A DNA stretch of 9,098 bases from Magnetococcales bacterium (GTDB lineage Bacteria; Pseudomonadota; Magnetococcia; Magnetococcales; JADFWU01): positions 11,042-20,139 of the forward strand of contig JADFWU010000035.1 in NCBI GenBank assembly GCA_015234045.1. Reading direction: 5' to 3'. The notes beneath the pieces are model-generated. The model did not search any database. It had not been told where the DNA came from and saw only the letters and a list, made by a program, of their open reading frames with translations. This document shows, one piece after another, positions 1,945 through 9,098 of this stretch (its first letter is position 1; the number at the start of each line of letters is the position of its first letter). The position numbers and the translations under genes are program-made.

Positions 1945-3723
1945 ATGTGGCGACCAACTGCTTTCATACTCCTGTCAATCCTATCACTGTTCATTTTGAC
2001 CAGCTGTCAGAGCGGTGGTGGTCAGATGAAAGGCAAAAGCCCGGCATTTGCTGGTCGAAATGCCATTAAGATTGAACAGAAAAAGCCCTTAAGCCCCGCT
2101 CAGTCGAAAGTCAGCGTCGTTGCCCTACCCGACTTTGTTCAAAAACGTTTGATGGACAAAAACATCAAGGAAGAGGGGTATTATGCCGAGGCCCTGAAAC
2201 TGGTCGATGGCAACATGTACTATGAACATTGGAATGAAAAAGCCCAACGTGAAGAAAAACAAACACCCACTGAGGAACTGTTGTCTCGATATGGCGCCGA
2301 CAGTGAGACCGATATCGCCCGCCAGCTTGACCAACTAGGCATTGATGTAACACCTGAAAAAATTAAAGAATTTCGCAAAAACGGTACATTAATACATTAT
2401 CTACTTGAAGATTCTAAATCCCATCGTTGTTTCATCTTTTTCAGATCATCAACCGAAGATGATATACATGTCAAAGAGGAACACATCGCAGGAGAGCATG
2501 CCCTTTCAGGTGTCTCCTGTGTAAAAAAGAGCCAGAATGCGGCACGTGATCTGGAGTGGAACCACCTTGAATTAACGTCACAAGTCTTTTTTGACAACGG
2601 TAAACGCACGAAAGATCAGCTGCTAAAAAAGTCCTTGGCCAAACTGGACAAATTAGCCGAATTGGAAGCAGAACGCCTTAAACGAATCAATGACACCGAA
2701 AAGCCCCAATTCAATGGCCTGCCTGTCACACTGGAGATCGACACCTTTGGCGCAGTTACAGTACGAGGCACAGTATCCGATCAATCAGCACTGGATATGG
2801 TCCGTATCAATGGTACCGCTGTCGCGGTTGAAGGCAACCAAGCACAATTTCAGCTGGAGTTTCCAGTACGTCCCGGACAAAAAGCCATCCACCTGATGGC
2901 TATGGATGAACATGGATTACGCACTGATCAGTGGCTGGAGATCGACTTCAAAGGCATGGATATGTCTGTTTTCTGGAGTGATACTGCTGCTGTTTCTTCC
3001 GCTGGCAATGGCATCTCCATGGCCCTGTTGATCGGCAATAGTGATTATGCCCACTGGGGCAAACTGGTGACACCTTCCTATGATATCGATTCTCTGGCCA
3101 ACGTTCTTCAAAACAGTTATGGCTATGAAGTCCTGAAACTCATAGACACCTCCAAAAATGAGTTGTTGGAAATTCTCGAATCCTACTTGGTCGATAAAAC
3201 CCGCGATGTCGATAACCTATTGATCTACTATGCCGGTCATGGACTGCTTTACAAAAAACGTGGTTATTGGATTCCCGTGGATGGTCTGATGGATGATCCC
3301 GCACTCTGGGTTTCCAACCAACGCATCACCCGTGCTCTGCGCCGCCTGCCTGCACGCAATGTGATGGTTATTTCCGACTCCTGTTACTCCGGTACCATGA
3401 TCCAGAACAAACCGACAAAAAAGGAGAACACAACCTTTGAGGAGAGCCTGTCACAAATGTGGTCACGCACCGGCATGGCCGCCAGTGATGCTGAGGAGGT
3501 CGCATTGGAACCCGTTCTCAGTGAAGGTGAAGTGGGTAACTCACTGTTTGCCGACGTTTTACTGGATGTGCTGGACGGAAACCGTGGACGCATCAGTGCC
3601 TCTTTGGTTTATGAAAACGTCAGTGAGATTCTGGAACCTTTTCCGCAGAATCCTCAATATGGGCCAATTGGTCGTGCAGGTCACGATCTTGGGGCTGATT
3701 TCACCTTTACCAGAACCGAATGA
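1945..3723 (+). CDS. Lipoprotein with Ig-like and caspase-like (peptidase C14 / metacaspase-type) domains
   Basis: A 592-residue protein. Residues 1-20 form a lipoprotein signal ending in lipobox L-T-S-C21. Gln at +2 predicts sorting to the outer membrane. Residues ~22-250 match no domain I recognise; they hold C162 and C192 (possible disulphide) and a charged helical stretch at ~218-250. Residues ~255-336 look like an Ig-like beta-sandwich (GTVSD, VRINGTAV, MDEHG). Residues ~357-590 are a caspase-like fold: strand ALLIGNSDY, catalytic His432 in YYAGHG and catalytic Cys480 in DSCYSG, 48 residues apart as is usual for the family. Both dyad residues are intact, so it is probably an active cysteine peptidase facing the periplasm or cell surface; the substrate is unknown. 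An in-frame TGA at 1939-1941 makes ATG 1945 the first start and the signal peptide supports it, although no good ribosome-binding site precedes it. It lies between the adhesin and an OmpA-like gene, which suggests a role at the envelope or on surface proteins. Confidence 0.88.
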   Translation: MWRPTAFILLSILSLFILTSCQSGGGQMKGKSPAFAGRNAIKIEQKKPLSPAQSKVSVVALPDFVQKRLMDKNIKEEGYYAEALKLVDGNMYYEHWNEKAQREEKQTPTEELLSRYGADSETDIARQLDQLGIDVTPEKIKEFRKNGTLIHYLLEDSKSHRCFIFFRSSTEDDIHVKEEHIAGEHALSGVSCVKKSQNAARDLEWNHLELTSQVFFDNGKRTKDQLLKKSLAKLDKLAELEAERLKRINDTEKPQFNGLPVTLEIDTFGAVTVRGTVSDQSALDMVRINGTAVAVEGNQAQFQLEFPVRPGQKAIHLMAMDEHGLRTDQWLEIDFKGMDMSVFWSDTAAVSSAGNGISMALLIGNSDYAHWGKLVTPSYDIDSLANVLQNSYGYEVLKLIDTSKNELLEILESYLVDKTRDVDNLLIYYAGHGLLYKKRGYWIPVDGLMDDPALWVSNQRITRALRRLPARNVMVISDSCYSGTMIQNKPTKKENTTFEESLSQMWSRTGMAASDAEEVALEPVLSEGEVGNSLFADVLLDVLDGNRGRISASLVYENVSEILEPFPQNPQYGPIGRAGHDLGADFTFTRTE

Positions 3724-3788
3724 TATCCCAACATAACTCGCTGAATGTTCAGGCGAATTTGCTTGATTTTTTGTTGGGAATCGGATAT

Positions 3789-3797
3789 TGTTATTAT
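3789..3797 (+). promoter_or_regulatory. Possible extended -10 promoter for the OmpA-like gene
   Basis: TGT-TATTAT (3789-3797) fits an extended -10 element (TGn followed by a 5/6 match to TATAAT). A transcript starting near 3804 would have a leader of about 28 nt before ATG 3832. There is no convincing -35, the closest being TTGTTG at 3771-3776. This is assigned by motif only. Confidence 0.35.
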
Positions 3798-3831
3798 GTA
3801 TAGGGAAATTCTTGTCAAGCAGGAGATGATC

Positions 3832-4425
3832 ATGAAACTCTCACATATTTTTCTAGCTGTAGGAACTGTTCTGCTGGCTGCTCAACCTGCTTTGGCCGGA
3901 GAGCTTCAGTTTCCTGAATCCAAAGATGAGATGATCAAGGCGTTGAAATTCCAAAACGCCACAACCGAACACGAAGGCAAAGTGTACGAAGTCACCGAAT
4001 CCGGTGAGAAGTTTTTGATCTACAAAGGCAAGCGCTATAGAATGCGCGGCATTGGTAAGATCGTTGACTCCGATATCGTACCTAAAATTGGTGCGCGTAT
4101 TCAATTTCCAGTCAATGGTTCCGCGGTTCAAGCTCAATCATTCCGCGTTCTGGATCAGCTGGCAGAAGCCCTGAAAGACAGCACGCTGTCCGACTCTGTC
4201 ATACAGGTTTCAGGACATACGGATACCAGTGGCGATACTCATCAAAACATGACACTCTCACAACAACGTGCTGATGCGGTAAAAGGTTACCTGATCTCCA
4301 GACACGGAATCTCTCCCAATCGTCTGATCAGCAAAGGGTATGGTGAGTCCAAACCACTGGCCTCCAATGCGGACCATCAAGGCCGGAGTCAAAATCGTCG
4401 GGTTGAATTTATTCGTATTGAATGA
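3832..4425 (+). CDS. Secreted periplasmic OmpA-C-like peptidoglycan-binding protein
   Basis: A 197-residue protein with a signal peptide at residues 1-22, probably cut by signal peptidase I after A-L-A (ALA|GE). There is no lipobox. Residues 23-86 are a short region I do not recognise. Residues ~87-197 are an OmpA C-terminal (OmpA/MotB) domain: IQFPVNG, SGHTDTSGD, NMTLSQQRAD, GYGESKP and NRRVEF. D131 and R146 sit 15 residues apart, like the Asp/Arg pair that holds diaminopimelate of peptidoglycan in Acinetobacter OmpA. There is no beta-barrel, so it is probably a soluble periplasmic cell-wall binder. ATG 3832 is chosen because AGGAG (3821-3825) lies 6 nt upstream and the signal peptide starts there. 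In-frame ATGs at 3745 and 3826 are less likely. The gene follows the caspase-like lipoprotein by 108 bp and ends at a strong terminator. Confidence 0.9.
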   Translation: MKLSHIFLAVGTVLLAAQPALAGELQFPESKDEMIKALKFQNATTEHEGKVYEVTESGEKFLIYKGKRYRMRGIGKIVDSDIVPKIGARIQFPVNGSAVQAQSFRVLDQLAEALKDSTLSDSVIQVSGHTDTSGDTHQNMTLSQQRADAVKGYLISRHGISPNRLISKGYGESKPLASNADHQGRSQNRRVEFIRIE

Positions 4426-8214: not shown

Positions 8215-8250
8215 AACTCTATCCCTGTCATCAGGGTCGCGGAAAAAATA

Positions 8251-8357
8251 AATTATTGCCAGAATTTTAATACAGAGATAATTATGCCTGCCATAGAGAC
8301 CGTGATAGAAAACGACCAAATCATAAAACGATCCATACGCTTATTCATTGATTCAAA
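8251..8357. repeat. 107-bp direct repeat, identical to 8782-8888 (3' end of both coiled-coil genes)
   Basis: All 107 bases match 8782-8888. They cover the stop codon, the membrane segment and the linker of both paralogues. The absence of synonymous changes indicates very recent duplication or gene conversion. Confidence 0.95.
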
Positions 8358-8759
8358 ACGCTGGTCAACCTTCTCAAAACGCTTTTCCATACTCTGCTGC
8401 ATCATTTCAAAGCGTTTATCAACTTGCTCAAAACGCTTATCAAAGCTCTGCTGCATTTCTTCAAAACGCTTATCAACCTGCTCGAAGCGCTTATCAATGT
8501 TTAGTTGCATTGATTCAAAACGCTTATCAACCTGCTCAAAGCGCTTATCAACCTGCTCAAAGCGTTTATTCATCAACTCAAAGCCTTGCTGCATCAGCTC
8601 CCGTTGATGTCTCAACTCACTTTCAATATTCAGTACACGGTCACGTACTTCCAACTCATGGGCAATATGCGCTGAGGTCACCTGTCGTTCGCTCAACCAA
8701 CGACCGAGATTGGCATCCATGTAGTCTGCAATTGCTTGTTCCAGCTGTTGCTGATCCAT
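8253..8759 (-). CDS. Tail-anchored coiled-coil repeat protein (copy 1)
   Basis: A 168-residue protein. Residues 1-64 form a charged, mostly helical head (MDQQQLEQAIADYMD start). Residues 65-139 are built of KRFEQVD-type units: six 7-residue units and three 11-residue units (KRFESMQLNID, KRFEEMQQSFD, KRFEMMQQSME). A basic linker KRMDR and one C-terminal membrane segment (~146-164) follow, ending KFWQ. The repeats should form a long homo-oligomeric coiled coil anchored in the inner membrane by its tail, with the head in the cytoplasm. ATG 8759 is supported by AGGG about 8 nt upstream. The gene starts only 24 bp after the stop of a paralogue on the same strand. I recall similar proteins in gammaproteobacteria, but know no established function. 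Frames open on the opposite strand through this region are by-products of the 21-bp repeats. Confidence 0.8.
   Translation of the reverse strand: MDQQQLEQAIADYMDANLGRWLSERQVTSAHIAHELEVRDRVLNIESELRHQRELMQQGFELMNKRFEQVDKRFEQVDKRFESMQLNIDKRFEQVDKRFEEMQQSFDKRFEQVDKRFEMMQQSMEKRFEKVDQRFESMNKRMDRFMIWSFSITVSMAGIIISVLKFWQ
8536..8612. repeat. 77-bp direct repeat, identical to 9022-9098 (5' side of the repeat block)
   Basis: The 77 bases match 9022-9098 without change, and the match may continue past the window edge. The offset is 486 here and 531 at the other end, so copy 2 is 45 bp shorter in the region between. Confidence 0.95.
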
Positions 8760-8783
8760 TGTCGCGACCCTAAATCCTGTGAA

Positions 8784-9098
8784 TTATTGCCAGAATTTTA
8801 ATACAGAGATAATTATGCCTGCCATAGAGACCGTGATAGAAAACGACCAAATCATAAAACGATCCATACGCTTATTCATTGATTCAAAGCGCTTATCAAC
8901 TTGCTCAAAGCGCTTATCAACTTGCTCAAAGCGCTTATCAACTTGCTCAAAACGCTTATCAACTTGCTCAAAACGCTTTTCAACTTGCTCAAAACGCTTT
9001 TCAAAGCTCTGCTGCATTGCTTCAAAGCGCTTATCAACCTGCTCAAAGCGTTTATTCATCAACTCAAAGCCTTGCTGCATCAGCTCCCGTTGATGTCT
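8784..9098 (-). CDS. Tail-anchored coiled-coil repeat protein (copy 2), N-terminus cut by window edge
   Basis: The last 104 residues of a paralogue of the neighbouring gene. The frame stays open to the right edge: bases 9081-9098 encode RHQREL, as in copy 1, so the Met at 9080 is internal. The repeat block holds seven 7-residue units and one 11-residue unit (KRFEAMQQSFE), 60 residues against 75 in copy 1. The linker, membrane segment and KFWQ end are identical to copy 1. Both genes run on the minus strand 24 bp apart, so they are a tandem duplication and probably an operon. Co-expressed copies with matching heptads could form mixed coiled coils. Confidence 0.8.
   Translation of the reverse strand, partial: RHQRELMQQGFELMNKRFEQVDKRFEAMQQSFEKRFEQVEKRFEQVDKRFEQVDKRFEQVDKRFEQVDKRFESMNKRMDRFMIWSFSITVSMAGIIISVLKFWQ
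8886..8990. repeat. Five tandem 21-bp units in coiled-coil copy 2
   Basis: Units start at 8886, 8907, 8928, 8949 and 8970. The first three are identical and the last two differ at one or two bases. Each encodes one KRFEQVD-type heptad on the minus strand. Unit gain or loss by slippage keeps the reading frame. Confidence 0.95.

Follow-up and report, generated by a model that had tools for sequence, protein, structure and literature searches.

Tail-anchored coiled-coil genes in tandem in a Magnetococcales bacterium: a bacterial family with conserved ends and a variable repeat stalk

The window, i.e. the whole stretch of 9,098 nt that was analysed (G000:C46:11042-20139, from an assembly of 3.6 Mb in 117 contigs), ends in two adjacent paralogous genes on the minus strand which share a C-terminal membrane anchor, as the initial annotation had proposed. 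Copy 1 (8253-8759), delimited by the open reading frame list and the family search, is a complete gene of 168 aa. Alignments define its head (aa 1-60, 8580-8759), consisting of a helix, a short loop region and the start of a long helix; this is followed by a stalk (aa 60-141, 8337-8582), whose sequence divides into units of 7,7,7,11,7,11,7,11,7,7 residues, and by the membrane anchor (MDRFMIWSFSITVSMAGIIISVLKFWQ) with the stop codon (8253-8336). The initial annotation described the repeats and the anchor rightly and missed the head of 60 residues. Copy 2 (8784-9098) lies 24 bp upstream of copy 1 on the same strand, continues past the window end and is represented inside the window by its C-terminal 104 codons and the stop codon, comprising a stalk of 67 aa (8868-9068, units 7,7,11,7,7,7,7,7,7) and an anchor with stop codon (8784-8867), all on the minus strand. 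Both copies have identical DNA throughout the anchor and over the 10 residues available from the end of the copy 2 head; within these limits they differ only in the stalk.

Since the window stops exactly at the start of a 100-N scaffold gap (window 9099-9198, L009 1641-1740), the truncation of copy 2 is due to the assembly. Across the gap, its head begins with ~26 codons that have 98% identity to copy 1 over 85 nt; ~70 nt are missing by comparison with copy 1, and the 100 N are therefore a placeholder. A search for more copies, as recommended earlier, gave two additional loci of the same genome, C23 (277 aa) and C48 (188 aa). The 24-bp spacer between the copies (8760-8783, no strand assigned) holds short remnants of an inverted-repeat arm, and an arm of a dispersed inverted-repeat element (8233-8257, likewise without strand) overlaps the stop codon of copy 1. 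With 24 bp between two genes on one strand, co-expression of the pair is plausible, and both copies may be expressed. A terminator scan of the locus gave none, the promoter-like sites that were found sit on the wrong strand, and Rfam had no match around the locus.

By our count the stalks measure 82 and 67 residues, instead of the 75 and 60 given earlier for the two rods. The stalk of copy 1 covers its 82 residues in 23 turns (3.565 residues per turn), and alternation of heptads with hendecads, proposed for most of this copy, is strict in a part of 54 residues (8358-8519, minus strand), which consists of three units of 18 residues (54 bp) at 3.60 residues per turn. On the DNA level, Tandem Repeats Finder (TRF) reports a 54-bp repeat at 8346-8551 with 3.8 copies and 80% matches. 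Copy 2 is nearly all heptads, as had been noted, with a single hendecad among nine units, 3.526 residues per turn and a DNA repeat unit of 21 bp (TRF, 8884-9004). Hydrophobicity periodicity peaks at 3.585 in copy 1 (power 15.9, 99% shuffle limit 7.5) and at 3.55 in copy 2 (power 14.8, limit 7.2), so that both stalks lie far above shuffled sequences in the coiled-coil check that had been recommended.

A straight helix has a periodicity of 3.63 residues per turn, heptads of 3.5 and hendecads of 3.67, and an arrangement of 18 residues over 5 turns has been described (PMC4786415). The near-untwisted helix postulated for copy 1 applies to its alternating 54 residues, whereas the stalk as a whole, at 3.565, takes a middle position between the values of heptads and of a straight helix; copy 2, at 3.526, comes near to it. 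A designed difference in twist between the copies finds little room in averages as close as 3.57 and 3.53. In heptad/hendecad coiled coils with stutters an insertion of 4 residues turns a heptad into a hendecad, as is the case here, and the 18-residue periodicity is common to both; the units studied here differ from these coiled coils (PMC4786415) in being near-perfect, in their fixed R-F start and in a number that changes between paralogues.

Across the 93 homologues described below, the heptad reads F at position a, V, I or M at d, D or E at e and R at g, with the identities at a and g imposed by the search pattern. Free of that pattern are heptad position d (V, I or M in 93% of units) and hendecad position h (M in 94%). 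The position frequencies and the comparison of periodicity with shuffles show a continuous hydrophobic seam at a/d or a/d/h. R-h-x-x-h-E is a known trimerisation motif. The heptad R-F-E-Q-V-[D/E] fits this form, with the qualification that the last position, usually E in the trimer motif, is D in 82% of units.

The initial reading as helical rods that are anchored in the membrane by the C-terminus is supported, and these rods have an unbroken hydrophobic core. AlphaFold2 models copy 1 as an uninterrupted helix from residue 3 to residue 167 (mean pLDDT 92) with a dip in confidence at residues 21-30 in the head, and a short homologue as a helix (3-23), a loop and a second helix (29-103); in both, a single helix runs through stalk and anchor and any break is in the head. 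The pTM values of these single-chain models are low (0.45 and 0.34), which is normal for a chain that forms a single long helix. In copy 1 the anchor averages a hydropathy of 1.99 across 19 residues (family median 2.03), and 4 residues follow it. In 90% of the members the best 19-residue hydropathy exceeds 1.6 (9/93 are below 1.6), and the hydrophobic segment always lies 0-10 residues from the C-terminus. Neither copy 1 nor the family has an N-terminal hydrophobic segment or signal peptide, and their single membrane segment within ~30 residues of the C-terminus is the arrangement of C-tail-anchored proteins. Lysine and arginine number 3.4 in the 12 residues preceding the anchor and 0.8 after it; by the positive-inside rule this bias, together with the lack of an N-terminal signal, predicts that the N-terminus, with head and stalk, lies in the cytoplasm.

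Whole-protein searches returned generic coiled-coil matches, and the family, here called KRF, was gathered with the head alone as query. Among GTDB species genomes 223 related stretches were obtained, of which 78 loci were kept, and 93 usable full-length members formed the comparison set. Carriers are mainly Chromatiaceae, Ectothiorhodospira, Halomonadaceae, Methylothermaceae, Magnetococcales and Desulfotignum, in addition to some Spirochaetota and SAR324 records, with 1-8 matches per genome in the fifteen family-containing genomes; most of the full-length members come from Chromatiaceae, other Gammaproteobacteria and Magnetococcales. Within the order of the window the distribution is patchy (10 of 48 genomes). 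Whole proteins searched against Pfam, NCBIfam and PDB hit generic coiled coils only, and no Pfam or NCBIfam hit reached its curated limit; PADLOC and PHROGs gave weak coiled-coil matches only, and no Pfam family describes the heads (11 heads, E <= 5). Judged by these comparisons, the putative tail-anchored coiled-coil rods are a real and widespread bacterial family that is undescribed in the curated libraries searched. A phage or plasmid origin was considered and dropped, as head-based searches did not find the family in collections of phages, plasmids and viral contigs.

Conservation within the family is highest in the head, and in alignments its residues E37, R41, E46, H51, R53, E54, L55, M56 and F60 are invariant in A2. 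Two anchor types, RxDRFMxWSFG (34/93) and RHDxxFLWLxGFI (52/93), follow like heads, suggesting that family members may have exchanged their ends. Between these ends, 98% of 634 unit-start spacings in the 93 members equal 7, 11 or a sum of these numbers. The shortest stalk has 14 residues and the longest 173 (median 57), and at least one hendecad is present in 57 members and none in 36. Neighbouring hendecads are rarer than in shuffles (14 against 25.9 +/- 3.3), and runs of 11-7-11-7-11 are commoner (11 observed, 2.0 +/- 1.5 expected); these runs are confined to 7 proteins with unlike hendecad sequences (e.g. MQQSFD, MKADMD, MQTSMD). Independent duplication of 54-bp units would account for such runs, with no selection on twist; selection for a straighter rod is a further possibility.

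Tandem copies with unlike stalks recur. Pairs at the same locus, always on one strand, differ in stalk length in 11 of 11 cases, at a head identity of 94-100% in ten and 81% in one, and an anchor identity of 90-100%. Among 70 pairs with at least 90% identity at both ends, only six have equal stalks. Stalk length thus varies among homologues and among near-identical pairs while head and anchor are conserved. With this variation, and with hendecads missing from 36 of 93 members, neither a ruler of fixed length nor a 7/11 order that is indispensable is likely, and a designed difference in twist finds no support.

The head, the anchor and the stalk units are under purifying selection. The pN/pS ratios, which are approximate as pS is near saturation, are 0.15-0.23 for heads and 0.39-0.54 for anchors (within anchor types). 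Stalk units compared within a single gene gave 0.32 (heptads) and 0.39 (hendecads) once the positions that the search pattern fixes were left out. The heptads of copy 1 gave a pS of 0.60 and a pN of 0.046. Because synonymous differences between units exceed nonsynonymous ones, the repeats are kept as protein and are not only recent DNA duplicates.

We suggest, with a probability of roughly 0.6, that these proteins are cytoplasm-facing, tail-anchored oligomeric stalks which display a small helical head, and whose length changes by in-frame gain and loss of repeats. Both the head at the N-terminus and the coiled coil behind it would reside in the cytoplasm, with the single C-terminal helix crossing what is presumably the inner membrane. 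The Phe/Val core would probably bring the chains together in parallel, perhaps as trimers, and the resulting oligomeric stalk would keep the small helical heads at a distance from the membrane for the binding of a partner. This stalk would act as a spacer in which in-frame units of 21, 33 and 54 bp could be gained or lost by recombination or slippage, since any mixture of heptads and hendecads would preserve the hydrophobic seam. Selection would hold head and anchor constant, and stalk length would drift or be loosely tuned. A scaffold or display role is possible, and a display stalk of freely changing length, rather than a precise ruler, is the most likely form of it. The 7/11 mixture in the window would then represent one state of a fast-changing repeat and not a precise design. 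More doubtful is the extension that tandem paralogues, perhaps as hetero-oligomers, form a graded set of rods in each cell which shows one head at several distances, with a length that could be switched through the gain and loss of repeats. In its natural members the family combines constant heads and anchors with rods that change, and it thereby offers a ready test of how important stalk length and twist are in membrane-anchored display.

The surroundings of the pair bear on the unlikely alternative that these genes are accessory passengers which hardly benefit the host, were spread and duplicated by repeats and mobile elements, and persist only as they do no damage. The pair is bracketed by inverted-repeat arms, at 8233-8257 and in a complete element of 168 nt (L009 1838-2005), which lies beyond the window on the upstream side of copy 2 and has a strong predicted fold (z -9.45), and recombination between these inverted repeats could be the origin of the tandem pair. 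No Pfam family occurs more than three times among 111 immediate neighbours, the one seen three times being the recQ neighbours of the Thiocapsa records, and a recurrent operon partner that would suit the display model did not emerge; all-against-all clustering of neighbours is dominated by antisense frames of the family gene itself. The bracketing element, the lack of conserved neighbours in this survey, the recurrent tandem copies and the patchy occurrence in the order (10/48) all fit passengers, but the purifying selection on head and stalk units, the nearly always open frames and the missing matches in phage, plasmid and viral collections speak against them.

The inverted-repeat arm AGGGTCGCGGAAAAAATAAATTAT has 17 matches in the genome at no more than 2 mismatches and its reversed control has none. 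Genes resembling PD-(D/E)XK nucleases (Rpn-like, AAA-ATPase_like/PDDEXK_9, DUF3782-like) are met repeatedly, in several genera, at distances of up to 5 kb from the family genes, e.g. at loci L036, L051, L059, L073 and L088; PDDEXK_9 matches account for just 2 of the 111 immediate neighbours.

With regard to described systems, the short helical cytoplasmic proteins YqjD, ElaB and YgaM of E. coli (DUF883) resemble the KRF family in a C-terminal inner-membrane anchor and in several paralogues, and differ from it, in the parts of their descriptions considered here, by having no KRF-type repeat array (PMC5525287, PMC6389858). That KRF proteins work like YqjD and ElaB, as tail-anchored proteins in stress or ribosome tethering, would agree with this common plan and with the several paralogues per genome, and is nevertheless improbable given that DUF883 is absent from the Pfam matches of the 11 heads (E <= 5). 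The Bdr proteins of Borrelia, compared by description only, likewise form paralogous families in which short in-frame repeats vary in number and a membrane segment stands at the C-terminus, but they have an unlike repeat motif and are plasmid-borne. Very unlikely, finally, is a molecular ruler or tether in which two rods set defined membrane distances and their twist difference is functional, as initially put forward: unequal stalks with a common anchor and head end and an 11/7 alternation above shuffles would suit it, but not a family range of 14-173 residues, equal length in just 6 of 70 near-identical pairs and a mean twist gap of ~0.04 residue per turn.

The plan of head, stalk and C-terminal anchor, with its coiled-coil stalk, is also that of the CCDC90-like proteins (DUF1640, PF07798: MCUR1, CCDC90B, Put6/Put7 of yeast and numerous small proteins of bacteria), which carry at the start of the stalk a beta-layer neck of the form [aliphatic]-A-T-K-[polar]-[DE] (PMC4786415). 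A genuine PF07798 gene with the motif LATKAD is present elsewhere in the same genome (L114 1369-1641, minus strand, 90 aa). Membership of the KRF family in this group was rejected on three grounds: PF07798 did not match at C46, C23 or C48 in a search of the own genome (E <= 1) nor in the members at L104 and L062 in single-protein scans, the neck was found in 0 of 93 members with a strict or a relaxed pattern, and the KRF heads are unrelated to the head of the genome's CCDC90-like protein (hhalign probability 0.9%, 24 columns). Between the anchors of the two groups hhalign gives a weak alignment (23 columns, probability 28%), and the KRF stalk differs in being a highly repetitive 7/11 array.

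Elsewhere in the window, an open reading frame at 1-1839 with 243-bp repeats is adhesin-like by appearance, and on the same strand follow genes for a caspase-domain (Peptidase_C14) protein (1945-3723) and an OmpA-domain protein (3745-4425). In addition, the genome contains a second coiled-coil family. Its proteins begin with a signal-like N-terminus and have short repeats of the KRFDxVN type or of other types; GYIAWDRR forms a membrane segment in their centre, and LRSFSLL is conserved at the C-terminus. The genes lie on the plus strand at L012 (876-1421 and 1457-2074) and L118 (1372-2028 and 2055-2579) and on the minus strand at L013 (1432-2001) and L014 (1025-1774); this family also occurs in tandem pairs with unlike stalks, apparently in the opposite topology.
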